From positions 1-20,453 of IMG/VR virus record IMGVR_UViG_3300027754_003706: DNA of 20,453 nt. One strand, 5' to 3'. How positions within the stretch are numbered: the stretch's first letter is position 1; every line of letters begins with the position of its first letter. Origin of the DNA: a virus. The notes under the pieces are model-generated. The model did not search any database, was not told where the DNA came from, and was given only the letters and a program-made list of their open reading frames with translations. The translations under genes were made by a program, and so were the position numbers. Of the stretch, positions 2,172-20,453 are shown in pieces.

Positions 2172-2172
2172 A

Positions 2173-2862
2173 TTAATTGTTTATATAGTAAGCTATACCC
2201 ACTTCCTTAGAGTGTTTAATTAAAGTTATATCCTTTCCAATTTCACTTAATACTTTTGGAGTACCATATCTTTCTGCATCTAAACAAGCATCATGAAATG
2301 CAACAATACCATTTTTCTTTACCAACTTAGAATAATTTTCCCAATCTAATTTCACATATTCGTAACTATGGTTACCATCAATAAAAACTGCATCAAATTC
2401 TCCAAAAGATTTAATTTTGTTAATAACAGACGCATCAATGGATGAACCATATACAAAATGCTCTTTATTTTGATTATGCAATAACTCTCTATTTGAATAG
2501 TTTGTTATATTTTTAATATCATACTCAACAGTTACAACTTCATCACAAATTAAACTTAAACAAAAATGAGTTGAACCAAAATGACCTAATCCAATTTGTA
2601 AAACTTTCTTAACATCATTCTCAATAAGTAACTTTAAAAAATCATAAAGTTCTTCTCTGATTTGCTGAATGATTTGTGGTTTACTATTAACAATATCTTC
2701 ATTTGGGTCAATCCAAAGTTGCTTATATGTTTCGTAGTTATGTACTAAGTATTCACTACCTCTATGCTCTAACATAAGAAGTACATCATTAATCGTTTCA
2801 TCGGTTGTTGAGTTCTTATGCTTTTCTTTAAAGTATGTATTAAACCAATTGTAGTATGCCAT
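2173..2862 (-). CDS. Class I SAM-dependent methyltransferase (Methyltransf_24-like)
   Basis: 229 residues. The SAM-binding motif I is 'VLQIGLGHFGSTH' (87-99), ending the first strand of the Rossmann-like fold; 'VVTVEYD' (109-115) gives the acidic residue expected after strand 2. 'DAVFIDGNHSYEYV' (157-170) is the hallmark of the Methyltransf_24/cephalosporin-hydroxylase-like group, and 'GIVAFHDA' (185-192) is the later strand. No signal peptide or membrane segment is apparent. Start and upstream stop share a base (TAATG), implying translational coupling to the epimerase upstream. In this cassette it may O- or N-methylate a sugar; FkbM-type or protein methylation remain possible. Confidence 0.75.
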   Translation of the reverse strand: MAYYNWFNTYFKEKHKNSTTDETINDVLLMLEHRGSEYLVHNYETYKQLWIDPNEDIVNSKPQIIQQIREELYDFLKLLIENDVKKVLQIGLGHFGSTHFCLSLICDEVVTVEYDIKNITNYSNRELLHNQNKEHFVYGSSIDASVINKIKSFGEFDAVFIDGNHSYEYVKLDWENYSKLVKKNGIVAFHDACLDAERYGTPKVLSEIGKDITLIKHSKEVGIAYYINN

Positions 2863-3869
2863 TATTTATTTGTTTTTAATTTTGTATCTTCACCATTGAA
2901 AGCATCATATCTTCCCATATGATTTGAGTTTTGTTGATACCACTCATATGTCTCTCTAATACCATCTTCCAATGAAACGGTAGAAACAAATCCAGTTGCT
3001 TTTAATCTATCAATGTTAGCAACTCTAGCATCATCGCCGGTTGGTTTAGTTGCATCTAATACAATATCCAATTGCTTACCAGAAACTTTAATAGTAGTTT
3101 CTACCACAGTTCTAATTGTAATTGCTTCACCATTGCCAACGTTTACAGGTTGTGCAACTTTATTAGCTACCATATGTATTGCTGCTCTAGCTACGTCTCT
3201 AGCGTGAATGATATCTCTCTTTGATAATCCAGTTCCCCACACATCAACTTGCGTATCTGCTTCTGAAACTTTCCTTACTAAAGATGGAATTAATGTAGAA
3301 GTTCTTAAATCAAAATTATCAAACTTACCATATATGTTTACAGGCTTAATGATAGAAATGTTTCTCTTACCAGTTTGTTGCTCATATGCATCAATTTGTA
3401 CTTCCGCCATTCTTTTAGACCAGCCAGCAAACCAATCATTACGTGATGGCATTTGGTCCCATAATTTAGATTCTTCGAATATCTCAGCTGGTCCGTATGT
3501 ACCAACAGTTGATGTGTACAATCCCCACTCCATAGTTTCAGAAGCGTTCATCGCTGTAATCATATTAGTATTCATCAAAATAAAGTTAGTGAAGAATGCG
3601 TAAGGCTTTTCTTTTACTAAGACAGGTGAACCTTTAATACCTGCTATATGGAATACATAATCTTGTCCTTTAACAGCTTCAAAACAATTGTTAATATCTC
3701 TCAAATCTGCGTTTATATAGTTTACGTTCCAATCCGATTCAAAATTGTTTTCATCTAACGATATTGAAGTTACCTCAGCTCCTTCTTTTACCAATAGTTC
3801 TACCAATTCTCTACCTACTAGTCCAGTTCCACCGGTTACTAATACTTTCTTTTCTTTAAATGTTATCAT
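2862..3869 (-). CDS. NAD-dependent epimerase/dehydratase (extended SDR)
   Basis: 335 residues with a clear Rossmann motif TGGTGLVG (12-19), 'NADLRD' near 53-58 and 'STVGTYGP' at about 120-127. 'GTGLSKRDIIHARDVARA' near 214-231 is the substrate-domain segment seen in UDP-glucose 4-epimerase and GDP-sugar relatives. The active-site helix reads 'DWFAGWSKRMAEVQ' (145-158): K152 is present, but the canonical tyrosine four residues before it is replaced, F147 being the only aromatic candidate nearby besides W150. The gene begins 14 bases inside the end of the CgeB-like gene and shares TAATG with the methyltransferase. It is the second SDR of the cassette, so two sequential modifications of one sugar are plausible. 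Substrate unknown. Confidence 0.85.
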   Translation of the reverse strand: MITFKEKKVLVTGGTGLVGRELVELLVKEGAEVTSISLDENNFESDWNVNYINADLRDINNCFEAVKGQDYVFHIAGIKGSPVLVKEKPYAFFTNFILMNTNMITAMNASETMEWGLYTSTVGTYGPAEIFEESKLWDQMPSRNDWFAGWSKRMAEVQIDAYEQQTGKRNISIIKPVNIYGKFDNFDLRTSTLIPSLVRKVSEADTQVDVWGTGLSKRDIIHARDVARAAIHMVANKVAQPVNVGNGEAITIRTVVETTIKVSGKQLDIVLDATKPTGDDARVANIDRLKATGFVSTVSLEDGIRETYEWYQQNSNHMGRYDAFNGEDTKLKTNK

Positions 3870-4839
3870 AGTTTTTGTTTTTCCAATTTATTAATGTTTT
3901 ATCTTTTGTTTTTATAAACTCAAATATATTTTCTACCGAATATTTTTGAACTTGCTCATATGCAGCTTCAATCATTGGTATATAATTTTCAAAATTCTTA
4001 TCAACATCATTTAAGATATCTTCTAATTCTGAGTTGTTTTCAAAATATATGAAATGCTTATTTGGTTCATAGAAATCTTCTATTAAATTCCAAGGGTCTT
4101 TTTTACAAAGTATTAAAGATTTACAAGTAGCAATTTCATGCGTTCTAACTTTAAATTGTGGTAATATACCATCACTTGCGTAAGAGTCCCAAATCTTAAG
4201 TTCATTTCCCTCATAACCCGGATTATATTGAATGCTTGGTGCTTTATATAATTTATTAAATGTAAGTGAACTTTTTGATTTACTAACTTCTTTTAATTTA
4301 TCTTCAGTTGATATATTAACATGCGTACATTTGTTATATTCATATGGATGGTGTAACCAAGTGTTTTGCTGAGATGTAATGTATTTGTAAGGGAACTTAC
4401 TAATAACATCAATTGCGCCGGCATGCTCATCTCCGTTTATAGAACCAAACCAAGAAGATACTGCATCATAGTTTCCAAATGAATCTAATGAATAGTTTGT
4501 GTATGGATATGGAATGTATATAAATTTCTCATAACCAAAATGTTTATTCATAAATGCACAAGTGAATGGACAGACACAATATACTTCAGTAAATTGCTCA
4601 TATGCATCCATATAATAGTAATTTGGTTTTAATAAAAATTCACAAGGTGACCAATGTGCTAATAAAGCTTTTCTATTATAATCCATATATTCACCTAACA
4701 TATAAGGTGCATCTATAAACTGAACTCCATTAAAGAATAAATCTTTGGAATTTTCATCAGATAGATTATCTAATATTTTTTGTATATATGGTATTATACC
4801 ATATGGTGCATCTCCACCAAAGTTTTTAATTACCTTCAT
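3856..4839 (-). CDS. Probable GT-B glycosyltransferase (CgeB/GT group 1-like)
   Basis: 327 residues. The C-terminal half carries 'QFKVRTHEIATCKSLILC' (228-245) followed by a 'FIYFENNSELEDIL' segment (263-276). This pattern, an R-x-x-E helix, a loop and then a per-residue 'interval' segment, is seen in the Glyco_trans_1_2/CgeB group of GT-B enzymes. The N-terminal region is divergent; 'GGDAPYG' at 8-14 may be a phosphate-binding loop. No transmembrane segment is apparent. The start shares one base with the aminotransferase stop (TAATG), and the end overlaps the next epimerase by 14 bases. It probably transfers one of the sugars made by this cassette. Donor and acceptor are unknown. Confidence 0.6.
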   Translation of the reverse strand: MKVIKNFGGDAPYGIIPYIQKILDNLSDENSKDLFFNGVQFIDAPYMLGEYMDYNRKALLAHWSPCEFLLKPNYYYMDAYEQFTEVYCVCPFTCAFMNKHFGYEKFIYIPYPYTNYSLDSFGNYDAVSSWFGSINGDEHAGAIDVISKFPYKYITSQQNTWLHHPYEYNKCTHVNISTEDKLKEVSKSKSSLTFNKLYKAPSIQYNPGYEGNELKIWDSYASDGILPQFKVRTHEIATCKSLILCKKDPWNLIEDFYEPNKHFIYFENNSELEDILNDVDKNFENYIPMIEAAYEQVQKYSVENIFEFIKTKDKTLINWKNKNYDNI

Positions 4840-5471
4840 TATTCTATTACTTTGTTATTTTTGAAAACAGTGAATTCAGTTAAATCTCTATAACCATTTA
4901 ATTCACCTTGGTCTGAATTGTGTATTGATAGGTTTTGAAACATTGCCAATCCATGTGCTGCTTGCTGTGGAGTCATATACATATTCCATCCCAAAAATGT
5001 AATATCATCATCTTTATAATATTTTTCACTTCTACCTTCGTAACGGGCTTTCTTAAACCAATCAGCTGCCTCAGCGTTATCAGTTAGAATCATACCACCT
5101 TTCCAAATTGGTAATATTTTTTTAATATGAAACGATAATCCCATAAACGTTCCGGGCATATACATATCTTTTGTTAATCTCTTAGCAGCATCCCAAATTG
5201 GATATGGCTTCAATTGATATGCACCTACCCAATGATTTGTTTCAGGTCTTTTATCAAATATAACTTCACCACCAGCGTGAATAATTGATTGTGGTACTGA
5301 TAAATAGGTTTTAGATGGGATGGTTACCTCTTTAACTTTGTTGTATTTACAAATTAAAAATAGTGCATTAGTACAACTATCAATTGAAATAGCGTATGGT
5401 GCTCCCGTATAAGCTGCTATTTCTTCTTCAAACATTCGTACTACTTTGTACGGATTGTGTAACATTGGCAT
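4839..5471 (-). CDS. Minimal DegT/DnrJ/EryC1-type PLP aminotransferase
   Basis: 210 residues, about half the usual 360-400. The family landmarks of the PLP domain are present. 'YAISIDSCTNAL' (26-37) is the phosphate/cofactor loop, and 'IPSKTYLSVPQSIIHAGG' (51-68) matches the conserved strand-helix. D94 in 'WDAAKRL' fits the pyridine-nitrogen aspartate. K118 (or K117) in 'LSFHIKK' fits the Schiff-base lysine, and 'GGMILTD' follows at 125-131. 'LGWNMYMTPQQAAHGLAMFQNL' matches the region that closes the large domain. The small C-terminal domain is missing, so it is either a reduced aminotransferase working as a dimer or a degenerate one. A second start at the third codon is possible. Expected role: transamination of a 3- or 4-keto sugar nucleotide. 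Confidence 0.8.
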   Translation of the reverse strand: MPMLHNPYKVVRMFEEEIAAYTGAPYAISIDSCTNALFLICKYNKVKEVTIPSKTYLSVPQSIIHAGGEVIFDKRPETNHWVGAYQLKPYPIWDAAKRLTKDMYMPGTFMGLSFHIKKILPIWKGGMILTDNAEAADWFKKARYEGRSEKYYKDDDITFLGWNMYMTPQQAAHGLAMFQNLSIHNSDQGELNGYRDLTEFTVFKNNKVIE

Positions 5472-5473
5472 AA

Positions 5474-5689
5474 TTAATTATTTTCTTCTTCTATGATTTC
5501 AATGCAAAGTATATTCTTATCATTAACCATTACTAATCTACCATCAGCTGTTTCAAACTTGGTAAATTGACCTTGCTTAATAGAATGTGTATCTACATTA
5601 TTAAAAGTTCTTTTCTCACCACCTACAAAATGTAAGATTTGTGAAACGTATCTTCCTTTTTTTATAATTGAACTTTTTAAGTTTGTCAT
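5474..5689 (-). CDS. Small hypothetical protein in the sugar cassette
   Basis: 71 residues that I do not recognise. It begins with a basic stretch ('SSIIKKGRYVSQ') and then shows alternating hydrophobic residues suggesting a small beta-rich fold ('RLVMVNDKNILCIEII'), ending in an acidic tail. No cysteines pair up as a metal site and no membrane segment is visible. It is placed with only one- and two-base gaps between the acetyltransferase and aminotransferase genes, so it is translated as part of the cassette and is unlikely to be a chance ORF. An accessory or structural role for a neighbouring enzyme is possible but not shown. Confidence 0.65.
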   Translation of the reverse strand: MTNLKSSIIKKGRYVSQILHFVGGEKRTFNNVDTHSIKQGQFTKFETADGRLVMVNDKNILCIEIIEEENN

Positions 5690-5690
5690 A

Positions 5691-6071
5691 TTATTTTTTG
5701 AATATTATATAAGCTTCCGTAAATCCACAAGACTTAAATAAATTCATACTTGCCTCATTACCTATCTTAACCTTCCCTTCTGCAGTTGGCCATATTTTCA
5801 TAGCTTCCTCAATCATAAACTTACCAACACCTTTTCCCTGATAATCAGGATGTGTACATACTCTTATATCATCTTCTATTACTCCCACATATCCTGCGGG
5901 CTTTCCATCAACTAAAGCAACACGATAACACGTATGATAAGTGTTCATATAACTTCTTTGTTGCTGTTCGGTAATAAAAGTAGTTGCTATAAAACCACTA
6001 ATTACTCTTTCATCAATTCTTAGTTCTCTTACAAACTCCCAATACTCTTCGCTACATTTTACTAATTCCAT
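5691..6071 (-). CDS. GNAT-family N-acetyltransferase (possible amino-sugar acetyltransferase)
   Basis: 126 residues from the chosen start. Motif A of the GNAT fold is 'VCTHPDYQGKGVGKFMIEEA' with the acetyl-CoA pyrophosphate loop Q78-G-K-G-V-G83. 'GNEASMNLFKSCGF' is the usual C-terminal motif B. The N-terminus 'MELVKCSEEYWEFVRELR' resembles GNATs that acetylate 4-amino sugars (PseH/FdtC-like). The frame is open to an ATG at 6167, but that would overlap the GT-D-like gene by 106 bases and add 32 residues unlike the family. The ATG at 6071, which overlaps by 10 bases, gives a normal GNAT start (6077 is also possible). With an aminotransferase two genes downstream, N-acetylation of an amino sugar is the natural reading. 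Confidence 0.8.
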   Translation of the reverse strand: MELVKCSEEYWEFVRELRIDERVISGFIATTFITEQQQRSYMNTYHTCYRVALVDGKPAGYVGVIEDDIRVCTHPDYQGKGVGKFMIEEAMKIWPTAEGKVKIGNEASMNLFKSCGFTEAYIIFKK

Positions 6072-6841
6072 ATACATATTTTTTGAATGTCCTGTCCGCC
6101 TGTGTAATTCCAAAATGCTTTTAGGTAACCTCTTTCGGTTGGCATATTCATCATTGGAGTTAAACATGTTCCTATATCAACGTAAGAATTAGTTGGAAAC
6201 TCTTTGAATAACTCGTATATTGCCAAATTAGAAAACGTTGAAGCTGAAAATAAGAATAGATGATTTTCAATGTTATTTTCTTTAATCCATATTTTAATTT
6301 CTTCAATTTTACCATAATCATTTATCATTGCGTTATATCCTACTCTAAAATCTTTTTTTATAAATGGTAACTTTGATGTATCTGCACTTTCGTGTCCAAC
6401 AAATACACAATCCTTGCTATAAAAAATTGGAAGTGTATTCATTATGAATAATGGATAATTTCCATTAACCCATAAATTTGCCCAACTTAAGCTTTCATCA
6501 TCACCACCATGTAAATTAATTTGCCAATCAAATGCTTCTTTACCAACACAACAACTGCAACTAATACCTTTGTAATAATTTGTTTGTCTATGCTTATAAG
6601 CCTCTACTAACTTTTGTTGATAGAATCCATGCTCCTTAGGGTCATAGTGTTTGAAATCAGCAGGTTGATAAAATCCTCCTTGCTTTTGCTCTCCAATTTG
6701 AATTAATCCATTATCTAAAACTAATTCTTTGTTTTGAAGAATATACAATTCACCATCTGAATATCTAGCAAATGCAAAGTGTTCATCTTTACGAATCATA
6801 TCAGTAAACTTAGCAAAGTGCTCTCTAAAATTCTTCTGCAT
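6062..6841 (-). CDS. Probable GT-D-fold glycosyltransferase-like protein (DUF1792-like)
   Basis: 259 residues. 'FAFARYSDGELYIL' (22-35) resembles the 'RFGDGE' nucleotide-sugar/metal motif of the GT-D (DUF1792) glycosyltransferases. The late 'NSYVDIGTCL' segment near residue 220 resembles that family's conserved C-terminal strand. The middle contains a cysteine cluster ('SCSCCVG', about 94-100) that I cannot explain. No membrane segment is visible. The gene starts 17 bases inside the wecB end and overlaps the acetyltransferase by 10 bases, so it is within the operon. The family assignment comes from short motifs only; a different Rossmann-type protein is possible. Confidence 0.5.
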   Translation of the reverse strand: MQKNFREHFAKFTDMIRKDEHFAFARYSDGELYILQNKELVLDNGLIQIGEQKQGGFYQPADFKHYDPKEHGFYQQKLVEAYKHRQTNYYKGISCSCCVGKEAFDWQINLHGGDDESLSWANLWVNGNYPLFIMNTLPIFYSKDCVFVGHESADTSKLPFIKKDFRVGYNAMINDYGKIEEIKIWIKENNIENHLFLFSASTFSNLAIYELFKEFPTNSYVDIGTCLTPMMNMPTERGYLKAFWNYTGGQDIQKICIWN

Positions 6842-7832
6842 CTAATATCTTTTTAATGTGTTTTGCTGCGTACCCATCCCCATATGGTGAATCTTTACAA
6901 ATATACGAATCTTTTTCCAAAGTAACAAATAAATCTTTTAATTTATCAGTAGTTTTACAAATATGCAAATGTCCGGTATAAATTGCTTCAGGTCTTTCGG
7001 TTACTTCTCTACAAACAATTACTTTCTTATTAAGGAAAGAAGCTTCTTCCTGTATTCCACCACTATCACTTATTACTAACTTACATTCTAATAGTATAGA
7101 TATCAGTTCATCATGTGAAAGTGGTTCTACTACTTTAACGTTAGTTAGTAAATCTCTATGTTTTTGTACATTTGGATTTGGATGCATTGGAAGTATAAAT
7201 TCTAACTCTGGATATTGTCCAGCTAAATCATTTACTTCTTTAAACCATTCGTGCATTATAGGATGGTTCTCTCTACGATGTAAAGTAACTAATACTTTGT
7301 TTCCGTATGTTGGTTCAGGTAACTCCACTAAGTTATCTAACACAGTGTTACCAACTAACCAAACATCACCTAAACATTTTTCTTCAAATATATTAACCAT
7401 TGCCGTTTGAGTAGGTGCAAAGTTTACATCAGCTATACGAGCTATCATTTGTCTATAACCTTCCTCTGGGTATGGATGTTTTAAACTCTTACTTCTTAAT
7501 CCTGCTTCTAAGTAATAAATTCTAAGTCCTCTATGATATGCCCCAATAGCACAAGCAAAAGCAGATGCGGTATCACCTTGAACCATAACACCTCTAAACT
7601 CACCTTCCGGTAAATCCAAACACCCCTTTACTACTTCATCTAATCTATTGAATAATTTACCTTCGGCAATAAATGCTTTGTAATCTACTTCTACTTCTTT
7701 AAGTAAGTCTTGATGTTGGCCTGTAAAGAATAATTTATATTCACTACGGTCCATTATTTTTATTAAAGGTTTTATCTTTAACCACTCCGGTCTAGTTCCG
7801 AAACATATTAATATGGGTAATTTATTTTTCAT
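6825..7832 (-). CDS. wecB: UDP-N-acetylglucosamine 2-epimerase (non-hydrolysing)
   Basis: 335 residues, slightly shorter than the 370-380 typical of WecB/MnaA. It interconverts UDP-GlcNAc and UDP-ManNAc in the cytoplasm. Landmarks are GTRPE (12-16), 'FTGQHQDLL' (36-44) and GDT with D87. E109 in 'LEAGLRS', the 'PYPEEGYR' glutamates (123-124) and H217 in 'PMHPNP' align with the catalytic residues of E. coli WecB. 'TLHRRENH' (183-190), 'SDSGGIQEEA' (255-264) and 'REVTERPEA' (275-283) complete the GT-B-like fold. The start ATG is followed by a four-lysine-rich stretch and overlaps the GT2 gene end by 11 bases. In this cassette it should supply a ManNAc-type sugar or a precursor of further modified amino sugars. 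Confidence 0.95.
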   Translation of the reverse strand: MKNKLPILICFGTRPEWLKIKPLIKIMDRSEYKLFFTGQHQDLLKEVEVDYKAFIAEGKLFNRLDEVVKGCLDLPEGEFRGVMVQGDTASAFACAIGAYHRGLRIYYLEAGLRSKSLKHPYPEEGYRQMIARIADVNFAPTQTAMVNIFEEKCLGDVWLVGNTVLDNLVELPEPTYGNKVLVTLHRRENHPIMHEWFKEVNDLAGQYPELEFILPMHPNPNVQKHRDLLTNVKVVEPLSHDELISILLECKLVISDSGGIQEEASFLNKKVIVCREVTERPEAIYTGHLHICKTTDKLKDLFVTLEKDSYICKDSPYGDGYAAKHIKKILDAEEF

Positions 7833-8592
7833 TTACTAATTTCCAGCCTTTTTGTCTTTGTTCGTTAAAATACTGATTCATCAATTGTTTGAATGGTACA
7901 CCTTCATTACTTCTTTGATTTGATTCCCAAAGTGAGTTAGCATCACCACCATAAGTTCCACCCTTCAAACTTCCCCACATTTCCATATCAGAACGAGGAT
8001 GTGGTGGTACGAATGTTTTTATTCCGGCATACTTTTGTAACATATATGAGAAGTGCATATCCTCACCACAGGTATTGTATTTAGGGTCTGGTAATTCTCT
8101 AACCATAATAGGTAACCATTCTTTCTTAAAGAACCAACTATGCCCCACTAAATCAACTTCAACAGTCCTATCGTTGTTACCTTGCTCCGGCCATCCAAAT
8201 CTTAAGTAGTGTTCGTAGTATGAAGATTGTTGAGGTGGTAATGGATTTAGGTAAAGTAATCCTACAGTTCCTAATAATCCTTCTTTCTCTTTCATTGTGT
8301 TCATACAATTTTCTAACCATTTCTTACCAGGAATTGTATCATCATCAAATACACATACATACGGATTCTTAGCGTTCATAGCAAAGTAGAATCTTGCCCA
8401 AACTCCAAAGTTGTAATTACAATATGCAACAGGAACTTCTGTACCAATATCGTAATTAATCAAATCATTATCGCCGGGATTATTGTACCATACTAATATC
8501 TCATCCGGCGGTAATGTTTGATTTTTGAGAGCCTCTAATTGTTCATTCAGATTCTCTCCTCTTTTGTAACCATTTAATATAACTGTTATCAT
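7822..8592 (-). CDS. GT2-like glycosyltransferase (GT-A fold)
   Basis: 256 residues. It begins with a GT-A nucleotide-binding pattern: 'ITVILNGYKRGENLNEQLEALKNQTLPPDEILVW' is spread over 2-35. The metal-binding 'VFDDDTIPGKKWLENC' follows, with D83-D84-D85. 'VGHSWFFKKEWL' and 'CGEDMHFSYMLQKY' correspond to the acceptor side, including an E-D pair typical of the catalytic base region in GT2 enzymes. No transmembrane helices are visible, so it is likely cytoplasmic. It overlaps the GT-B gene upstream by four bases (ATGA) and wecB downstream by 11. Marine T4-like phages commonly carry such genes. Donor and acceptor cannot be deduced. Confidence 0.85.
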   Translation of the reverse strand: MITVILNGYKRGENLNEQLEALKNQTLPPDEILVWYNNPGDNDLINYDIGTEVPVAYCNYNFGVWARFYFAMNAKNPYVCVFDDDTIPGKKWLENCMNTMKEKEGLLGTVGLLYLNPLPPQQSSYYEHYLRFGWPEQGNNDRTVEVDLVGHSWFFKKEWLPIMVRELPDPKYNTCGEDMHFSYMLQKYAGIKTFVPPHPRSDMEMWGSLKGGTYGGDANSLWESNQRSNEGVPFKQLMNQYFNEQRQKGWKLVNEK

Positions 8593-9584
8593 TTTAAATA
8601 ATTTTTAATTCTTTTTGTCCAAACTTCTTGTGAAAAGAGTTCTTTATAATTTTCTTTTGCTACTTTAGAGCATTTATCATAAAACTCTTTATCTTCCTTT
8701 AACATAATTGCCATCTCTCTTGCACTTTCTAAATCGTGTACCATTACTGATGTAGATGGGTGGCATAGCATTTGTGTATCTACATCCATATTTCCAATAC
8801 AAGGAATACCAAAGTATGCACAATTTATAGCGAATGTACCAGCTGCTACCGTTGGCATCATATGAATACCATATTTGAATGTTGATAATTCTGCCATCCA
8901 TTCACACCACATCATTCTTGGTAAGTGATTTAAGTTATCCATACTATCTTCACCTACTCTCATAGCGTGCGATGTTTGAGCCCAAATAGGAACTTCAAAA
9001 TTACCAGCTATAATATAACTTTCAAATCCACCATACCATCTTGCAAAGTTACCACCTATAATTGCTTTATCTTCTTTTGTAGGTATTATATCTTTTATTA
9101 GAGTATCAATCATTAAAGTACCAATAGGTTGGATTGTTTTGTTAGGAAATAACCCCTTATAATACATCACATCACTATCATTGTGTGTAAAGATTGTATC
9201 GCAAGATTGTAAAAAATTAAAGAAGTAAATTTGGTCTGCTACTTCATAATCATTGTACCACCAATGCGGTCCTTCTTGTACATAATGAACATTGTTATTA
9301 CCTTGTTGTTTTATTTTACCAACTATATCTTCTCTAAGTAATTGTGAAACTGGATTAAGTCCATTTACCAATGTACTTCCTTCCGAACTTAAGAATGTTT
9401 TACCTTTTGGAAATATAACAAAGACATGGTCATATCCTTTTAACTCATCAATCATATGAATATTGAAATGGTCAGCATCCAATGCGTACATCCAAGCAAA
9501 CTCCGTTCTCATATTTGGATGATTAGCTGGAACTTTACCCATAAATCCCATTTCAGTTAGGAAAGCTATTTTAGATTGTATCAT
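8589..9584 (-). CDS. Probable GT-B glycosyltransferase
   Basis: 331 residues. The C-terminal donor domain is suggested by 'TVAAGTFAINCAYFGIPCIGN' spread over 245-265 and the following 'LESAREMAIMLKEDKEFYDKCSKVAKENY', a layout typical of GT-B enzymes. The N-terminal half has 'VFVIFPKG' (54-61) and 'DTIFTHNDSDVMYYKGLFP' (129-147), where a conserved acidic/aromatic pattern precedes the linker. It lacks the classical E-x7-E signature of GT4. The gene overlaps the upstream GT2 by 14 bases and the downstream GT2 by four. Function beyond 'glycosyltransferase' is not readable from the sequence. Confidence 0.7.
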   Translation of the reverse strand: MIQSKIAFLTEMGFMGKVPANHPNMRTEFAWMYALDADHFNIHMIDELKGYDHVFVIFPKGKTFLSSEGSTLVNGLNPVSQLLREDIVGKIKQQGNNNVHYVQEGPHWWYNDYEVADQIYFFNFLQSCDTIFTHNDSDVMYYKGLFPNKTIQPIGTLMIDTLIKDIIPTKEDKAIIGGNFARWYGGFESYIIAGNFEVPIWAQTSHAMRVGEDSMDNLNHLPRMMWCEWMAELSTFKYGIHMMPTVAAGTFAINCAYFGIPCIGNMDVDTQMLCHPSTSVMVHDLESAREMAIMLKEDKEFYDKCSKVAKENYKELFSQEVWTKRIKNYLK

Positions 9585-10203
9585 AGTAATCGTTTTGCTT
9601 TTCTTGTCTTTCTATTTGTTTATGATGATATAAACAATATTGTTCTTCTGATGGTAATACTGAAAGTGTGTTATATCCAATAATTCTTTCATGCACTTTA
9701 CCTTGCCATTCTATTTCAGATGTTCTTCTATATAGTCTTGTTTGATAATCAGGAAAATTAACCCATCCTGCATCAGTTACATTCCACTTCCATTTTTTAA
9801 TATGTTCCGCTGTCAATCCTTCAACTGTATTAATTCTTGGTACAAAGAAAAGGTCTACATCTTTATTATATTCTATAAATTCATGTATATTTTGCATAAG
9901 ATATTCGGATGGAATTTCATCAGCGTCAATTTGAAATATAAAAATACCTTTAGCATGGGTTTTTAAGTTATTTTTGTATGATGCAAAATCATTATTAAGT
10001 GGAAATCCAATAACTTTAATATTAGTATTATGCAATTGAGATATTATATTTAAATAATTTTTAATAGCATCTGTTGCGGAGTCCTCATCATATTGAATTA
10101 AAATTTCATCTTCTTTTTCAATTTTATCTTTTAAAAAATCTATTAATTTTGTAATTTCTTGAAGTTCGTTACAAACAGTAATTGCATATGTTATATTAAT
10201 CAT
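9571..10203 (-). CDS. GT2-family glycosyltransferase, first gene of the sugar cassette
   Basis: 210 residues. 'INITYAITVCNELQEITKLIDFL' (2-24, here only summarised by its ends) opens a GT-A domain. 'FQIDADEIP' holds the metal-binding D93-x-D95. 'YQTRLYRR' and 'WQGKVHE' (166-172) are characteristic of the WaaE/SunS-like GT2 branch. The frame remains open to a TTG at 10224, but that codon is inside the promoter's TATATTTG element, so the ATG at 10203 is chosen. It follows the terminator of the fibre gene and a promoter-like site, so it should be the first gene of a separate transcript. The WaaE/SunS resemblance leaves both lipopolysaccharide core and protein glycosylation open. Confidence 0.85.
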   Translation of the reverse strand: MINITYAITVCNELQEITKLIDFLKDKIEKEDEILIQYDEDSATDAIKNYLNIISQLHNTNIKVIGFPLNNDFASYKNNLKTHAKGIFIFQIDADEIPSEYLMQNIHEFIEYNKDVDLFFVPRINTVEGLTAEHIKKWKWNVTDAGWVNFPDYQTRLYRRTSEIEWQGKVHERIIGYNTLSVLPSEEQYCLYHHKQIERQEKQNDYYDTI

Positions 10204-10221
10204 AGTATTTTTATTTGAATA

Positions 10222-10252
10222 CAAATATACAAAATTTATATGAGTTTACCAA
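10222..10252 (-). promoter_or_regulatory. Bacteroidetes-type promoter of the sugar cassette
   Basis: On the minus strand TTG (10252-10250) is followed by exactly 20 bases and then TATATTTG (10229-10222). This matches the primary-sigma promoter of Bacteroidetes (TTTG, 19-21 bases, TAnnTTTG). Transcription would begin about seven bases on, near 10215, leaving a leader of roughly a dozen bases before the ATG at 10203. It lies downstream of a terminator and upstream of 14 tightly packed genes. The match is by eye and not tested. Confidence 0.6.
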
Positions 10253-10308
10253 ATATATCTTTGTATATGTATATATAGATATAAATATACAATTTTTATA
10301 GAAAGCAT

Positions 10309-10344
10309 AAAAAAATGGGTAACTTTTTTAGAATTATCCATTTT
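10309..10344 (-). terminator. Rho-independent terminator of the collagen-like gene
   Basis: An 11-bp stem pairs 10312-10322 (AAAATGGGTAA) with 10334-10344 (TTATCCATTTT), with one G-U pair in RNA and an 11-base loop. Read on the minus strand the stem is followed by a run of seven T (complement of 10309-10315, partly overlapping the stem base). It begins 12 bases after the stop of the fibre-type gene, the normal place for an intrinsic terminator, and separates that gene from the sugar cassette. Confidence 0.75.
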
Positions 10345-10356
10345 ATTTATTTTATA

Positions 10357-12423
10357 TTAAGCTATTTTAATCCAAGTTGAACCATTATAATATACCAAAT
10401 CCCCAGTACTAAGACCAAATGATGATGATACCGTCAATGTACCAATTGCTGGGGTTATGAATGCGGGTGGATTATTACCTGTCCACAAATTAGGCCTTAA
10501 CCTAGTTGCTACATATATATCAGCAGAACCACTTAATGTTAATATACTAGTAGGTGTATCAAATGTAAGTGCAGGTTCAACAACTCCAGCGTTTGTAACT
10601 ATACCATCATAAGTAATAATTCCATTATTAGATGTACCACTTAATGTAATAGAACCATTAGTTCCACTTATACCAGATGTTCCAGATGACCCAGATGTAC
10701 CACCTGCTCCACTCAATCCAGTTCCGGAAGTGCCAGAAGTTCCTGATGTGCCAGATGTACCAAATGAACCAAGACCATTAGCCCCTGATGTTCCGTTTGT
10801 TCCAGAAGTGCCAGACGTTCCATCTGTTCCAATTCCTGCAGTACCACCTGCTCCACTTATTCCAGAAGTACCACTACTACCATTTATGCCAGACGTACCA
10901 TTAGCGCCTGATGTTCCGGATGAACCACCCGTACCATTTATACCAGATGTCCCAGATCCATTAACACCAGATGACCCATTAACACCAGAAGTTCCTGCTG
11001 TTCCATTTGCGCCAGATGTTCCTGAAGTTCCACCACCACCAGATGTAGATGCATTTATTGTTATCCTTGCCACACCACTACCCATATCACTAACATCAAC
11101 GGCAGAACCACTAAATGCTATTGTTGTGAAATTGGTTACGGAAGTTGGACCAAATCCACTACCTGCATAATTTCTTGCGGTTATTGATTGTCCAAATGAA
11201 GATGTTGGTACTAATCTTGTAACATTATTTGCACCACCAACCCAAGCATATCCACTTGCTAAAGAAGCTGATAGTGAACCTGTTAATTGTATATCGTTTG
11301 AAGTTGCATAAACATTACCGGCTACTTGTGCGAATATACCAGCACCAAACGATGATGTTGCTACTAATCTAGAAACATTTCCAATACCACCAACCCAAGC
11401 ATATCCACTTGCTAAAGATGCGGTGAATGTACTTGATGCAGATACAGTACCTGTTATTGATAATATATTACTATTGAATGTTAAATTTGATTGTACGTTT
11501 GAAGTAGGTGCGTTAAATGTAATCACACCACCCAAAGTTGTACCACTTAAAGATAATGCTCCGCTTGTTCCAGAAGTTCCCGAAGTTCCAGACGTACCGG
11601 CTCCACTTGTTCCAGACGTACCTGCCGTACCAATACCGCTTGTTCCAGAAGTTCCTGATGTACCGGCTCCACTTGTACCAGAAGTTCCAGAAGAACCTGC
11701 CGAACCACTAGCTCCAGAAGTTCCCGATGAACCAAAGAATGTACCATTTGCTCCAGATGTACCAGCAGACCCAGATGTTCCAGAAGTTCCTGATGAGCCA
11801 CTACTACCACTAGAACCACTTTCTCCAGAAGTTCCTGATGTGCCTCTAGTTCCAGAAGTTCCCGATGAGCCACTACTTCCGCTTGTGCCACTACTACCAG
11901 ACGTTCCTGATGTTCCTGATGAACCAGATGTGCCACTGCTACCACTTGTACCAGATATTCCCGGTGCACCTACTGTATTTATATACCAAGTTCCCGTTTG
12001 AGAACCACTACCTGCTCCAATTGAATATGCTTCTGCAACAACTACACCAGTACCACTATCATAAGATGTTACTGTTACATACATAAAATTGCTTATATTA
12101 TAAGCAACTACCATTTGTTGACCCACTGTCCAAGACAATCCAGTTCCTATTGTGAAAGTTTTAGTTCCACTTGCTGATATTGTTAAAGTTGTTGATGTAG
12201 CTTGAGATGTAAATAAATCTCCTTTTATTCCAGAAGTTCCTGATGTTCCTGATGTTCCTGAAGAGCCACCACTTCCCGCCGCTCCAGATGTGCCCGTTAC
12301 ACCAGATGTACCAGAAGTTCCAGATGAACCTGCTGATATTTGATTTTGTAAAAAATCTAGATTAGTATCCATTTCCAGTGCGGTTAATGGAGAACCTTTC
12401 GTAAGTCTTTTAACTAATGCCAT
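10357..12423 (-). CDS. Collagen-like (Gly-Thr-Ser repeat) phage fibre/structural protein
   Basis: 688 residues. 'LVKRLTKGSPLTALEMDTNLDFLQ' (3-26, summarised) resembles the N-terminal attachment segment of phage tail-fibre proteins ('KGSPLT..E.D.N...L'). Three tracts with glycine at nearly every third residue (about 32-68, 152-289 and 462-590), mostly GTS/GSS/GAN triplets, are collagen-like. Between tracts 1 and 2 lies a beta-rich domain (69-151) of a kind recurrent in phage fibres ('GLSWTVGQQMVVAY', 'VTSYDSGTGVVV', 'TWYINTVGAPG'). Between tracts 2 and 3 are two copies of a 51-residue unit containing 'ASLASGYAWVGG' (335-346 and 386-397). The C-terminus (about 591-688) is another beta-rich region. 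There is no signal peptide. It is probably a trimeric virion fibre or decoration protein. The Ser/Thr-rich tracts and the glycosyltransferase genes on both sides make glycosylation plausible, not proven. Confidence 0.85.
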   Translation of the reverse strand: MALVKRLTKGSPLTALEMDTNLDFLQNQISAGSSGTSGTSGVTGTSGAAGSGGSSGTSGTSGTSGIKGDLFTSQATSTTLTISASGTKTFTIGTGLSWTVGQQMVVAYNISNFMYVTVTSYDSGTGVVVAEAYSIGAGSGSQTGTWYINTVGAPGISGTSGSSGTSGSSGTSGTSGSSGTSGSSGSSGTSGTRGTSGTSGESGSSGSSGSSGTSGTSGSAGTSGANGTFFGSSGTSGASGSAGSSGTSGTSGAGTSGTSGTSGIGTAGTSGTSGAGTSGTSGTSGTSGALSLSGTTLGGVITFNAPTSNVQSNLTFNSNILSITGTVSASSTFTASLASGYAWVGGIGNVSRLVATSSFGAGIFAQVAGNVYATSNDIQLTGSLSASLASGYAWVGGANNVTRLVPTSSFGQSITARNYAGSGFGPTSVTNFTTIAFSGSAVDVSDMGSGVARITINASTSGGGGTSGTSGANGTAGTSGVNGSSGVNGSGTSGINGTGGSSGTSGANGTSGINGSSGTSGISGAGGTAGIGTDGTSGTSGTNGTSGANGLGSFGTSGTSGTSGTSGTGLSGAGGTSGSSGTSGISGTNGSITLSGTSNNGIITYDGIVTNAGVVEPALTFDTPTSILTLSGSADIYVATRLRPNLWTGNNPPAFITPAIGTLTVSSSFGLSTGDLVYYNGSTWIKIA
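10654..12330 (-). repeat. Three tracts of 9-bp-type TSG/collagen-triplet repeats inside the fibre gene
   Basis: Coding repeats at about 12330-12220, 11970-11557 and 11040-10654 encode G-x-y triplets, dominated by Gly-Thr-Ser. On the plus strand they appear as units like CCAGAAGTTCCTGATGTACC. Synonymous codons alternate (Gly as GGA/GGC/GGT, Ser as TCT/TCC/AGT, and so on), so DNA identity is much lower than protein identity. The reading frame stays open across all three tracts. Confidence 0.9.
11233..11418 (-). repeat. Exact 33-bp direct repeat within the fibre gene
   Basis: The 33 bases at 11233-11265 recur identically at 11386-11418, an offset of 153 bp (51 codons). They encode the 'SLASGYAWVGG' core of the two 51-residue units at about 335-385 and 386-436. 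The flanks are diverged but recognisable ('RLVATSSFG' and 'RLVPTSSFG'), so this is an in-frame tandem duplication of a protein module. Confidence 0.9.
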
Positions 12424-12432
12424 AATCTATAT

Positions 12433-12466
12433 TTTACTATTATAATTGTAATGTTATAACAGTAAA
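12433..12466 (-). promoter_or_regulatory. Stem-loop in the leader of the fibre gene
   Basis: 12433-12445 (TTTACTATTATAA) pairs with 12454-12466 (TTATAACAGTAAA) as a 13-bp stem. The single non-Watson-Crick position becomes G-U in the minus-strand RNA, and the loop has eight bases. It ends nine bases before the ATG at 12423 and is not followed by a T run, so it does not look like an intrinsic terminator. It could modulate initiation or protect the 5' end of a processed late transcript. I found no convincing promoter in this 65-bp gap. Confidence 0.5.
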
Positions 12467-12488
12467 TATATACGAATGGAAAAATAAA

Positions 12489-13046
12489 CTATTTTTTTGT
12501 TTGTTCTACTGGCGGAGGTGCTGCAGGATCTGTGATTGGTTTTGGTAAGGGTTCTTTCTCTGCTATATCAGTCCTTTTAATTCCATATATTTTTTCAATT
12601 GCTTCTAATTTAAATTCGCACCAAGCTATTTGTTTGATATTTGGTAAAATATATGTTCTAAATGGAGATGGATTTCCCTTCATAATAGTTTTACCCTTTA
12701 CGGATGACCCATATAATTTAGTACCTGCTTTATCTGCCTTTGGTGTAAGATTTTCCAACCATTTTAAATTATCAAAATCCGATTCCTTTAAATTTTTAAA
12801 CATTATTGTTTTTAACCAACGAAAAAATTTATCAGGTTTTATTTCAGTAACTTTTAAGCAATAAACTTTTTTACGAAAAATACCCAACACAAAAATTAAT
12901 ACAGAATTTGAACCTCTAAATTGTTTGGCTTCACCATCAGCGTATTCATATGAAATAATTTTATAAAGTTTTCTTACTCTTATCCTTGATTTGGATGTGG
13001 CTATTTCTGATTGTATTAAAGGTTTATATAAAGCTGCGTATGGCAT
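12489..13046 (-). CDS. Hypothetical phage protein with proline-rich tail
   Basis: 185 residues, not recognised. The first half is basic and beta/alpha mixed, with a hydrophobic strand 'SNSVLIFVLGIFRKKVYCLKV' near 46-66. I read this as a buried strand pair rather than a membrane helix, because charged residues interrupt it. The middle has 'FFRWLKTIMFKNLKESDFDNLKWLENL'. 'RTYILPNIKQIAWCEF' near 129-144 precedes an acidic, proline-rich tail (about 160-180, 'PLPKPITDPAAPPP'). It sits two bases after a GT4 gene and 65 bp before the fibre gene, so a structural or fibre-accessory role is possible, but nothing in the sequence proves it. Confidence 0.6.
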   Translation of the reverse strand: MPYAALYKPLIQSEIATSKSRIRVRKLYKIISYEYADGEAKQFRGSNSVLIFVLGIFRKKVYCLKVTEIKPDKFFRWLKTIMFKNLKESDFDNLKWLENLTPKADKAGTKLYGSSVKGKTIMKGNPSPFRTYILPNIKQIAWCEFKLEAIEKIYGIKRTDIAEKEPLPKPITDPAAPPPVEQTKK

Positions 13047-13047
13047 C

Positions 13048-14340
13048 TTATAATTTATTTAATTTAGGTATTTGCATCTTTGATGAATTTACCTTTGGAA
13101 TATTAAATGGAACTAATTTTGGTTGTATCTTAACGTAGTGCTCCAACATTTGAGTAAATCTATCATTCATTTTATCTAATGTAAAATTATCCAATGTATT
13201 AGTTTTTAATCCTTCAGATTTATTACTATAAGTATCATAATTCTTATAAACATCGTATAACTTATTAGCTGCAGCTGAATAATTTGCTGTAAACCATTGT
13301 GCTTCTTTCATACAAAATTGGTCTGCTGCTGATTCATGTACTGGTGTTAAACTACCTTCTAATAATACTGCATTTTCTGCCGGTAAGAAATCCAATTGCC
13401 CACTCCAACCACTAGCTATAATTGGTTTACCTGTCAAAGTAAACTCAGCCATTGGTCTACCATATCCTTCTCCTTTAGTAAATGAAACCATTGCTTTAAC
13501 TTTTGGATGATGATATAAATTACTCATATCAGTTTCTTCCATATCACCATGTATCAAATATACAGATGGGCACTTATCACCAAATGTTTTTAATACACCT
13601 TCTAATTTTTCTCTAGTTCCTTCTCTATCTATTACACTAAATCCAGCATGTGATGTTTTAACAATAAGACCAGGTCTTTTATCTTTTGGCATATATTGGA
13701 ATACCGTAGCAAATGTTTTAATTGCCATACCAATATCTTTTCTATCTTGTCCCAAATCTCCCTTCAACCAATGTCCTACAATTAAGAAATTAAAATCTTC
13801 TTTTACATTCTCTAATACATCTTTACCACTTCCTTTGGAAAATATTTCAGTATCAACTCCTTCAAAAAGAACTTCAATTGGTTTTATTACTTTAATTTCA
13901 CCAACTATTTGTCCACTTGCTTCATCTTTTTGTTGATATACAGTTCCACCAACATTTTGTTTTGTAAAATTAGATGGTACTATTATTAAATCCATATTAT
14001 TACAGCCATCAATAAAATCCTTTGGACAAATTGTAGTTTCAACGCCGGCAGTTATACCAATATTATAACCACCCTTTGCACTAAACTCATTTGCTACTGA
14101 TACCTGAATGAATACATCCGGCTTATCACTAACTTCGGTAATAACTCTTTCTAGCATCCATCTTCCAAAATCACTTTCACCATCAACATTATTTTGTGGA
14201 GTATTACCCCAACGTAGTGGTATAATTTTAATATCATACTTGTCCATTTTACGAAGTGACTTTAATAGGTCACGACTATGGTCCCCATATCCAGAACGAG
14301 TAAAACATGGGCTTTGAAATACTAATGTTGGTTTATTCAT
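13048..14340 (-). CDS. GT4-type (GT-B) glycosyltransferase
   Basis: 430 residues. The N-terminus 'PTLVFQSPCFTRSGYGDHSRDLL' (4-26, summarised) has the glycine-rich loop usual in GT4 enzymes. 'IIVPSNFTKQNV' (119-130) and 'VLFEGVDTEIF' (157-167) mark the end of the N-terminal domain. The donor-binding domain contains 'FLIVGHW' and the E-x7-E signature E291-G-Y-G-R-P-M-A-E299, followed by 'GKPIIASGWSGQLDFL'. It starts eight bases after the upstream GT4 gene stop. Together the two GT4 genes precede the fibre gene on the same strand, so modification of a virion component is plausible. The substrate is unknown. Confidence 0.9.
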   Translation of the reverse strand: MNKPTLVFQSPCFTRSGYGDHSRDLLKSLRKMDKYDIKIIPLRWGNTPQNNVDGESDFGRWMLERVITEVSDKPDVFIQVSVANEFSAKGGYNIGITAGVETTICPKDFIDGCNNMDLIIVPSNFTKQNVGGTVYQQKDEASGQIVGEIKVIKPIEVLFEGVDTEIFSKGSGKDVLENVKEDFNFLIVGHWLKGDLGQDRKDIGMAIKTFATVFQYMPKDKRPGLIVKTSHAGFSVIDREGTREKLEGVLKTFGDKCPSVYLIHGDMEETDMSNLYHHPKVKAMVSFTKGEGYGRPMAEFTLTGKPIIASGWSGQLDFLPAENAVLLEGSLTPVHESAADQFCMKEAQWFTANYSAAANKLYDVYKNYDTYSNKSEGLKTNTLDNFTLDKMNDRFTQMLEHYVKIQPKLVPFNIPKVNSSKMQIPKLNKL

Positions 14341-14348
14341 ATTATAAC

Positions 14349-15731
14349 TTATTTTATTTTAAAAACTTCAAATCTTTCTCTTGGTTTCCAATTTTCAAAT
14401 GTTGATTCAATTCCATCAACTAATGTTTGGCACATATTTGTATGTGTTAATCCCATCTCTCCAATAAATGTTTCTCTACCTATCAATGCGTTTGCTTTAC
14501 GAATATCTTTTGGTGTGTTGTACACTTTCTCAATTGCTTCCGCAACATCCTCTATATCAACTCTATCATCCCAAATATAAGGTGTAGGTACTGAACCCGC
14601 TAATGCTAATGCTCTACTCCAAACCGGCGTAACCCAAGGACCAGGTTTAGCTTTACCTTCCCACTTTCTCCACTCATGTAAAGAACCAATTTTAATATAA
14701 TCTTCATGTGTTAATAACTTATCATCAACCTCAAATCCACATTGGTCTTGCAATCCACCAGTTACGTTTACAATGATTGGAGTTCCAGCCATTACTGATT
14801 CTGCAGTTGCTAATCCAAATCCTTCGTTGTTAGCAATGTTGATTGTTACATCTGCTATATTATAGATAAGATTTAATTCTTCTTGTGGTCTTCTCTTTTC
14901 TGAAAATATAATATTACATTCAGGTGCCATTACATCTATTACTGCAGGTAAATCAGTTCCATTCTCATCAACAGGTTGTGTATGCATTACTAAACAAACT
15001 TTCTCTGCTTTCTCTTTACCAATCTTATCACAAAACTTTTTAAATGCTACAATAACGTCTGCAGGTTGTTTTCTTCTGATATTACGATTACTCCAATATA
15101 GAACAAAATCGTATTCTTTACCACCTAAAATTTCTTTACGGAATTCGGCAGATACGTCTGTTGGCTTATACACATTTGTATTAATACCATGTGGTACATA
15201 ACTTACTTGCCAATCTTTTTTAGGTTTCCAAGTTGGTTTTGTATCCAATGCTGATAGTCTTTTAATTATACCATATGTTTGCCTAGAGATACAACCAATC
15301 CAATCACAACTCTCATAGTAGTTACGATTATATAATGGGTCTGGTAAATCATCCCAAATTGCGTAGAATAATAAAGGAACATTTTGTCTAATTTCATGTT
15401 CTATATCATACAACCATGTCCAATAACGAGGGTCAGTAAAGTGTAAGATAGCATCAGGCTTTTCAGTATTTATTAATTGTCTAATCAAATCCGCGTTACC
15501 ATAACCATTCCAAGGTAAAATCTTTACATTAGCATCAGCGACACCATATGATTTTTGAATATCTTCACTAACATCTAAAACCTTCCCAGCTTCAGGATGA
15601 TTTATAGCTGCTCCCACCTGAAACCAATCGTATTTGTGTACTGTACCAAGTACTAATTCTTTTGACACAGTAGCGATACCACTTGCCATTCTTAAATCAT
15701 CCGAAAGTAAAAGGATTTTCTTTTTTGCCAT
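14349..15731 (-). CDS. GT4-type (GT-B) glycosyltransferase
   Basis: 460 residues. 'KKILLLSDDLRMASGIATVSKEL' (4-26, summarised) is the N-terminal strand and glycine loop. 'YVPHGINTNVYKP' (178-190) is the conserved GT4 linker motif. The donor site has 'LYWSNRNIRRKQPADVIVAF' (211-230) and the E-x7-E signature E303-G-F-G-L-A-T-A-E311, then 'GTPIIVNVTGGLQDQ'. No signal peptide or membrane helix is visible, so it probably acts in the host cytoplasm. It is only distantly similar to its neighbour, so the pair is not a recent duplication. It lies 15 bases after the ribbon-helix-helix-like gene on the right and eight bases before the second GT4. Donor and acceptor are unknown. Confidence 0.9.
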   Translation of the reverse strand: MAKKKILLLSDDLRMASGIATVSKELVLGTVHKYDWFQVGAAINHPEAGKVLDVSEDIQKSYGVADANVKILPWNGYGNADLIRQLINTEKPDAILHFTDPRYWTWLYDIEHEIRQNVPLLFYAIWDDLPDPLYNRNYYESCDWIGCISRQTYGIIKRLSALDTKPTWKPKKDWQVSYVPHGINTNVYKPTDVSAEFRKEILGGKEYDFVLYWSNRNIRRKQPADVIVAFKKFCDKIGKEKAEKVCLVMHTQPVDENGTDLPAVIDVMAPECNIIFSEKRRPQEELNLIYNIADVTINIANNEGFGLATAESVMAGTPIIVNVTGGLQDQCGFEVDDKLLTHEDYIKIGSLHEWRKWEGKAKPGPWVTPVWSRALALAGSVPTPYIWDDRVDIEDVAEAIEKVYNTPKDIRKANALIGRETFIGEMGLTHTNMCQTLVDGIESTFENWKPRERFEVFKIK

Positions 15732-15954: not shown

Positions 15955-15962
15955 TATTTATA
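15955..15962 (-). promoter_or_regulatory. Possible T4-late-type TATAAATA box
   Basis: Minus-strand TATAAATA is identical to the core of the T4 late promoter. It lies in the 51-bp gap between the nuclease and the ribbon-helix-helix-like gene, seven bases before the ATG at 15947. The start site it would direct falls almost at the ATG, giving a leaderless message, and the surrounding DNA is so AT-rich that a chance match is likely. Confidence 0.2.
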
Positions 15963-19359: not shown

Positions 19360-20453
19360 TTATCTCCCTACTTCTGATAGGTATTTTGCTTTCATTTCTT
19401 CCCAACTAATTCCAATAGCATCTATGTAGAATAAGTGCTCTGGTTTAATTCTTCCTTCATCATGTAGTTTTGTATATCTACTGATTGCATGTTTCTTCCA
19501 CCATTTGTTAATGTATTCAGTACCTTGTTTAAACTTATCTTTAAGTATTAATTTATCTTCGGTAATTTCATTTCTTAAAAACTCACTTCCATTCTCATAC
19601 ATCATAGCCATATAAACACCTCTTTTAAATCCGTGATGATATTGAGTTGCCTTAATACCACACTCTTTAAAAATTTGTCCTAATATCTTTTGTTTAATAC
19701 CACTAACAGGTCCGTTAGCTTCATATCCCATATTAGCACCATTACGAGCTCTCTCATCCGATATATTATCTTTATACCATTGTGCTCTATTTTCCTTAAT
19801 CCATTGATGCCAAGGGTCATAGAATTTATCATCCGGTTTTAAACTAATCTTACCAGCTGATTCACCTAATGTTTTAAATAAAGGAATACCATTATATTGT
19901 GAATGAATACCATACAAAGATGTTGTACCAACTGCAATCAAAACATTCTTATACTTCTCTTTCCAATATGCCCTAACCTCCGGCGTAGTTGTCATCATAG
20001 CGATTAACTTACCACCTAAAAAGTTATAACCTAATGGTTGAGTACATACAATAGTAGAAGCAATGGTAGTGTTATTTAACTTACCATCAACAAATTTATT
20101 ATCCTTAGTCCAACCAATAAAGTTATCTCTAACTCCCATAGCGGTTACATCGGATGCTAATGAAATTTGTCCTAATAGTTTTCCACTTACTCTATCCTTT
20201 ACATTAATCTTTACATTACGGCCAGGGTTTGCTGTAAAATCCATTGTATGAATCATACGTCTTACCGCTGCCCACTTAGTAGATTCCTTCGGGTCATCAA
20301 TAATCTCAACGTAAGGTTCTAACGATTCAATTTCTTTTATCGTTAGCTCCTTATTGTTGATATCAGTTGGTTTCCATTGTAAATCATAATAAGATGCGAT
20401 TTGGGATTTTGCTTGAATCATTGTAGGTTCTTGCAATTCAACCCACTTCTTAT
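19360..20453 (-). CDS. DUF4338/DruA-like protein, 5' end outside the window
   Basis: At least 363 residues are inside the window, and the frame stays open to the edge. A TTG at 20436 is not a convincing start, because the codons before it read KKWVE in frame. Numbering from that TTG, 'GKLLGQISLASD' (85-96), 'RDNFIGWT' (103-110), 'QPLGYNFLGGKLIAMM' (133-148) and 'AVGTTSLYGIHSQYNGIPLFKTLGESAG' (168-195, summarised) resemble the conserved blocks of DUF4338. That family includes DruA of the Druantia anti-phage system, whose biochemical activity is not known to me. A helical, basic C-terminus follows ('KKHAISRYTKLHDEGRIKP'). No DruB-E partners are present. It lies upstream of replication genes, so a role in phage DNA metabolism is as likely as defence or counter-defence. 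Confidence 0.5.
   Translation of the reverse strand, partial: KKWVELQEPTMIQAKSQIASYYDLQWKPTDINNKELTIKEIESLEPYVEIIDDPKESTKWAAVRRMIHTMDFTANPGRNVKINVKDRVSGKLLGQISLASDVTAMGVRDNFIGWTKDNKFVDGKLNNTTIASTIVCTQPLGYNFLGGKLIAMMTTTPEVRAYWKEKYKNVLIAVGTTSLYGIHSQYNGIPLFKTLGESAGKISLKPDDKFYDPWHQWIKENRAQWYKDNISDERARNGANMGYEANGPVSGIKQKILGQIFKECGIKATQYHHGFKRGVYMAMMYENGSEFLRNEITEDKLILKDKFKQGTEYINKWWKKHAISRYTKLHDEGRIKPEHLFYIDAIGISWEEMKAKYLSEVGR

Follow-up and report, generated by a model that had tools for sequence, protein, structure and literature searches.

Gene organization of the locus

The window, meaning the whole stretch of DNA analysed here, is a virus record of 20,453 bases in which nearly every gene lies on the minus strand. 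Read along that strand, the replication genes (clamp loader, dUTPase and exonuclease) lead into the glycosyltransferase (GT) genes GTB_A and GTB_B, followed by p185, the fibre, GT2_D, the gene at 8589–9584, another GT2 and the sugar genes. The GTs are located within the replication gene block, beside the clamp loader and exonuclease, and the genes downstream of the fibre run on into a nucleotide-sugar cluster. The features are as follows.

14349–15731, minus strand: GTB_A, GT4-type glycosyltransferase, 460 aa, first core GT (Pfam Glycos_transf_1, 35 bits; GT4-conflict, 28.8 bits)
13048–14340, minus strand: GTB_B, second glycosyltransferase, predicted GT4 / GT-B fold, 430 aa (PHROG 2170 glycosyltransferase, E 1.1e-21; AF2 and Foldseek)
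12489–13046, minus strand: p185, conserved protein of 185 aa with no family match, between GTB_B and the fibre
12453–12470, minus strand: late-type element TATATTTACTGTTATAAC upstream of the fibre; similar elements occur at the fibre genes of relatives
10357–12423, minus strand: collagen-like fibre, 688 aa (Pfam Collagen, 83.7 bits, E 7.5e-24; PHROG tail-fibre families)
10312–10344, minus strand: terminator-like hairpin after the fibre (−6.4 kcal/mol, z −2.2, one mismatch)
10222–10253, minus strand: Bacteroidota-type promoter TTTGG-N-TATATTTG before GT2_D
9571–10203, minus strand: GT2_D, SunS/GmaR-like GT2, third core GT (Pfam GT2, 36.8 bits; DADE (DxD) and VHE motifs)
8589–9584, minus strand: conserved protein, previously called GT-B, strongly conserved beside GT2_D
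7822–8592, minus strand: GT2 glycosyltransferase (Pfam GT2, 36.5 bits)
6825–7832, minus strand: UDP-GlcNAc 2-epimerase, WecB type (Pfam Epimerase_2, 195.7 bits; TIGR00236, 202.6 bits against a cut-off of 210)
1206–6167, minus strand: remaining sugar cluster, comprising a GNAT acetyltransferase, a short DegT-like aminotransferase, a GT-like protein, two NAD epimerases and a methyltransferase

A preliminary description of this DNA had placed two GT4 genes upstream of the fibre and a GT2, GT-B, GT2 series downstream, within an interval of 9571–15731. Both GT4 genes are present, GTB_B being recognized by its fold, and the p185 gene between this pair and the fibre had been overlooked. Both downstream GT2 proteins are found in Pfam. 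The protein at 8589–9584 has no GT match in Pfam, PHROGs, NCBIfam or PDB sequence profiles, and its assignment to GT-B was dropped. The third of these GTs and the remaining sugar genes fall outside the chosen interval.

Several further genes of the window deserve mention. The DegT-like aminotransferase (4839–5471, minus strand) has 210 aa against about 360 in its family and is matched in two stretches, and it is 80–99% conserved in relatives. A thiamine-dependent enzyme (E1/transketolase-like) is represented by two minus-strand ORFs, 52–582 and 592–1200, which match separate halves of one 405-aa PHROG family. In the replication block, the gene at 19360–20436 (minus strand), which is kept in relatives, matches Pfam DruA (Druantia protein DruA, E 1.1e-18). 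A near-DNA search of the phage collection with the window gave no match.

The collagen-like fibre

The fibre contains 154 Gly, 142 Ser and 111 Thr in its 688 residues. Eleven strict Gly-X-Y runs, in which GTS and GSS triplets predominate, occupy 308 of these residues, 145 of which are Ser or Thr, in agreement with the roughly 300 repeat residues previously attributed to a Gly-Thr-Ser repeat protein. The longest run has 26 triplets, against a maximum of 9 across 2000 residue shuffles of the fibre. With its long uninterrupted Gly-X-Y runs and a Pfam Collagen match above cut-off, the protein has the repeat pattern of a collagen-like phage tail fibre. It is built from a short N-terminal motif (MALVKRLTKGSPLTALEMD), the Gly-X-Y blocks, and internal and C-terminal non-repeat domains. 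It is probably a trimeric tail or whisker fibre, which would form a triple helix and reside in the virion; pointers to the virion are its likeness to PHROG tail-fibre families, the N-terminal motif, which other phage ORFs share, and the late-type element. The N-terminal motif was also considered as a fibre marker and was abandoned, as it occurs in phage ORFs lacking collagen repeats as well.

A subtilisin-like serine protease of about 530 aa (Pfam Peptidase_S8, E 2.3e-32) directly follows the fibre in locus L043 and in about 20 other fibre loci, where it sits between the fibre and GT2_D; the window is without it.

The glycosyltransferases and p185

The top PDB match of GTB_A is chlorovirus B736L (E 1.9e-11), and its conservation in relatives reaches down to 44% identity. 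GTB_B has no significant Pfam match. Its AF2 model (pLDDT 89.6) has the same B736L as the top Foldseek match (E 7.6e-15), which points to a GT4 enzyme of GT-B fold closest to the chlorovirus protein. The acceptor of B736L itself is not known (PMC9614988). The neighbouring p185 has no match in Pfam, PHROG or NCBIfam and has diverged in relatives to 34–42% identity, except for one copy at 90%.

The kinship of GT2_D with peptide glycosyltransferases, already proposed from the sequence, held up in three comparisons. Its AF2 model (pLDDT 92.2) has the peptide S-glycosyltransferases SunS/ThuS as top Foldseek matches (E 8e-11); its best PDB profile match is the flagellin glycosyltransferase GmaR (E 1.3e-9); and its sole NCBIfam match is SunS, at 25.2 bits against the TIGR04195 cut-off of 350 bits, which leaves it outside the SunS family proper. 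The DADE (D100-A-D102, the DxD) and VHE motifs are invariant in the alignment, consistent with the GT2-family GT-A domain found. The likely start codon of GT2_D is the ATG at 10203 rather than the TTG at 10224, because the latter overlaps the −7 box of the promoter and most relatives align from the ATG.

Gene order in relatives with and without the fibre

Relatives were gathered in two scans, one retaining the best 80 loci with GTB_B and the other the best 80 with GT2_D; the loci are mostly metagenomic fragments and are not independent of one another. The annotated relatives among the matches are Flavobacterium phage immuto and Microcystis phage Mel-JY01. The order of GTB_A, GTB_B, GT2_D and the replication block is kept down to about 40% identity, and p185 is retained in the nearer clades only. 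Within the GT4-GT4-p185-GT2 order, the interval between p185 (or its place) and GT2_D holds a collagen ORF in 36 distinct loci and none in 31 (n = 67, from the best 80 per scan).

When the three GTs were concatenated for a tree, 40 rows, 36 of them with the fibre, formed a clade with full support, and 24 fibreless rows fell outside it. Fibre presence requires four label changes on this tree, and every deep branch is fibreless, so the simplest reading is that an older GT operon gained the fibre once and that it was lost again three times. The tree was made by a quick method under a simple model, and its long branches meet at the root; only the inner clades are therefore relied on. One of the relatives, represented by contigs L112 and L114, lacks the local fibre and carries, some 20 kb away from the core GTs, a 796-aa collagen fibre that has a similar N-terminal motif and an identical upstream late-type element. 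Contigs L030, L069 and L113 are too short to judge such a relocation. Most members of the fibre clade keep the fibre beside the GTs, so a functional tie between the two may exist.

The distribution of collagen elsewhere in these genomes is uneven. In immuto (MW353176; 160 kb, deposited as complete), the GT core is present and no collagen-like match was found anywhere in the genome; the 198-kb record G009 likewise has no collagen match. Mel-JY01 carries a 1016-aa collagen ORF, and giant collagen-like ORFs of 2,000–4,600 aa occur elsewhere in many relatives, also where the local fibre is missing. Collagen could therefore still be a GT substrate, whether local or giant, while the operon does not require one. 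Giant ORFs were seen in G003, G004, G005, G010, G012 and G013; the ones inspected (L167–L169) lie near tail genes, and the C-terminus of one of them resembles, by eye, an S74-type chaperone domain.

Transcription signals around the fibre

All 36 fibre loci have the Bacteroidota consensus TTTG-N17-23-TAnnTTTG immediately ahead of GT2_D, and none of the 31 fibreless loci has it (distinct loci, best 80 per scan); in the fibreless ones p185 and GT2_D often abut. The TAnnTTTG box is the Flavobacterium promoter consensus (PMC9723704). Because this Bacteroidota-type pattern is so clean, the hosts of the phage group are probably Bacteroidota. A second conserved element, TATATTTA...TATAA, which is unlike the Bacteroidota promoter, lies upstream of the fibre, and a similar late-type element precedes all 30 fibre genes listed. 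In the 207-kb relative G010, the late-type element precedes the sheath, giant-fibre and head-completion genes, whereas ssb, PolA and GT2_D have the Bacteroidota promoter in front of them; genome-wide, the late-type element is only modestly enriched there (7 occurrences against 1.3 expected, with a maximum of 7 in 30 simulations). Judging by these motifs, the fibre is probably expressed late and the GTs early.

Of the terminator and new promoter previously placed between the fibre and GT2_D, the promoter stands and is of Bacteroidota type. The window's own hairpin is weak (−6.4 kcal/mol), but hairpins at the same place are strong in several relatives (−10.5 to −14 kcal/mol). General scans of the window carried little information: no terminator was called on the coding strand, and promoter-like sigma-70 sites were less frequent than in shuffled sequence. 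As for the T4-type late promoter TATAAATA, it does not occur upstream of the fibre; its coding-strand occurrences in the window are at 15962 and 11983. A further Bacteroidota-type promoter match lies at 6898–6929 (minus strand), upstream of a 259-aa gene (6062–6841) in the sugar cluster, and is also seen in L108.

A probable older glycan operon with an inserted fibre cassette

We consider it quite probable that a separately transcribed cassette with a collagen-like fibre has been inserted here into a glycan operon that is conserved among phages. This reading draws on comparison across relatives: the gene order, the pattern of fibre gain and losses, the promoter pattern, the one relocation, and the collagen-free GT operon of immuto. 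GT4-GT4-p185-GT2 would be a glycan operon of long standing in large T4-like phages, continued by a variable cluster of nucleotide-sugar and GT genes, and one lineage would have gained the cassette between p185 and GT2. The cassette would consist of the fibre with its own late-type element and of an early host-type promoter restarting the GT genes behind it, and in many relatives it would also include the subtilisin-like protease. The fibre would be made as a separate unit, probably late, and the GTs would be expressed without it, probably early. The GTs may act in the cytosol on an acceptor that is not lipid-linked, most likely a virion protein and not necessarily the fibre. Virion-protein glycosylation is our leading guess and the most likely role of the operon, because GT2_D is closest to the peptide glycosyltransferases SunS/ThuS and GmaR.

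The preliminary description had gone further and proposed a candidate glycosylated-fibre system. On this view the flanking GTs would attach sugars to the Ser/Thr residues in the Gly-X-Y triplets and give a sugar-coated virion fibre, for which the exosporium protein BclA offers a parallel. The 145 Ser/Thr within the repeats, the likeness of GT2_D to peptide GTs and the adjacency kept in 36 loci all speak for this proposal, but we judge it improbable. The GT core predates the fibre and is common without it (31 of 67 distinct loci, best 80 per scan), immuto has the GTs and no collagen-like protein, the fibre was relocated once, and the fibre and GT2_D stand under separate promoters. In addition, a collagen-like protein from an E. 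coli prophage is a stable trimer when made unglycosylated in E. coli (PMC3368898). The evidence for a joint system was the adjacency, and it is weakened by the comparison across phages, which reveals an older GT operon; since the cassette was inserted into this older set, the proximity of fibre and GTs looks like an accident of history. A broader form, in which virion proteins receive a phage-specific glycan made by the operon, which in the fibre clade also decorates the Gly-Thr-Ser collagen stalks of this and the giant fibres as a counterpart of BclA glycosylation, also strikes us as unlikely.

The main rival places the product on the host: the GTs and sugar genes would modify the envelope (LPS core or O-chain), thereby blocking superinfection or altering receptors. 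The GT2 and the nucleotide-sugar genes are of LPS type, and the same role has been proposed for the GTs of pelagimyophages, SAR11 phages (PMC7029224). Against it, a search of 12 records, mostly fragments, that included the window and immuto gave no match to the flippase, initiating-transferase and WecA families (PF01943, PF02397 and PF00953; Wzx, WbaP and WecA), while the controls were positive; the LPS core could be changed without these genes, and we hold the envelope to be a possible but doubtful target. A counter-defence role, with phage DNA or a defence protein of the host as the glycosylated target, is suggested by the position of the GTs in the replication block beside the clamp loader and exonuclease, by the GT4-conflict match of GTB_A (28.8 bits), and by a paper on related-looking phages that mentions DNA glucosylation in connection with their core GTs (PMC12619734). 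It appears to us to have a small probability. DNA glycosylation in particular is not favoured, because of the ThyA motif of relatives and the 7-deazaguanine pathway of immuto. The LPFN motif marks dTMP synthase, and Asp in place of its Asn marks the dCMP hydroxymethylase form; four ThyA proteins, all from relatives as the window spans only 20 kb of its genome, read RSVDTFLGLPFN and keep LPFN. Immuto already encodes the DpdA/Que 7-deazaguanine pathway. Furthermore, GTB_B is closest to GT4 enzymes, with no T4 DNA GTs among the 50 Foldseek matches listed. In a Tet/JBP search, none of the controls scored.

These results correct an easy mistake, as GTs beside a Ser/Thr-rich fibre do not imply a joint system. 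The promoter pattern (36/36 against 0/31) illustrates a way for a late gene to enter an early operon of a phage while the genes downstream of it stay active. Because a cultured Flavobacterium phage has the conserved GT core, the target of these enzymes is open to direct testing.

Comparison with known systems

GT2_D shares the GT-A fold and GT2 family with SunS/ThuS and GmaR, its nearest solved structures. Compared with SunS (417 aa), it has about 210 aa, is without the extra C-terminal part and scores far below the SunS family cut-off. BclA is a collagen-like surface protein with glycosylation, the anthrose system. Mimivirus L230 with collagen L71 is a glycosylated collagen case (PMC9614988). 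Both are known cases of a glycosylated collagen-like surface protein, to which the fibre and GT genes of the window may be likened by description. EPclA, from E. coli prophage fibre proteins (PMC3368898), likewise has a collagen Gly-X-Y stalk between end domains, but the fibre of the window has Ser/Thr triplets, almost no Pro and other end domains.

Among phage loci, the GT cluster of immuto (MW353176) has the same order of GT4-GT4-small gene-GT2 and then sugar genes, at 40–47% identity to the window. It differs in having no collagen fibre at the locus or elsewhere and no extra promoter before GT2, and its small gene has no match to p185. The Moraphages (PMC12619734) are also aquatic and large, with predicted Bacteroidota hosts and four glycosyltransferase orthogroups in the core genome; they are compared by description, and PMC12619734 makes no mention of collagen. 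The host recognition cluster of pelagimyophages likewise combines tail fibres and GTs in a variable region of T4-like phages, and triple collagen repeats occur among their structural proteins (PMC7029224). However, that cluster lies in the structural region and carries mainly GT8, whereas the window occupies a replication block with a conserved GT4/GT2 core.
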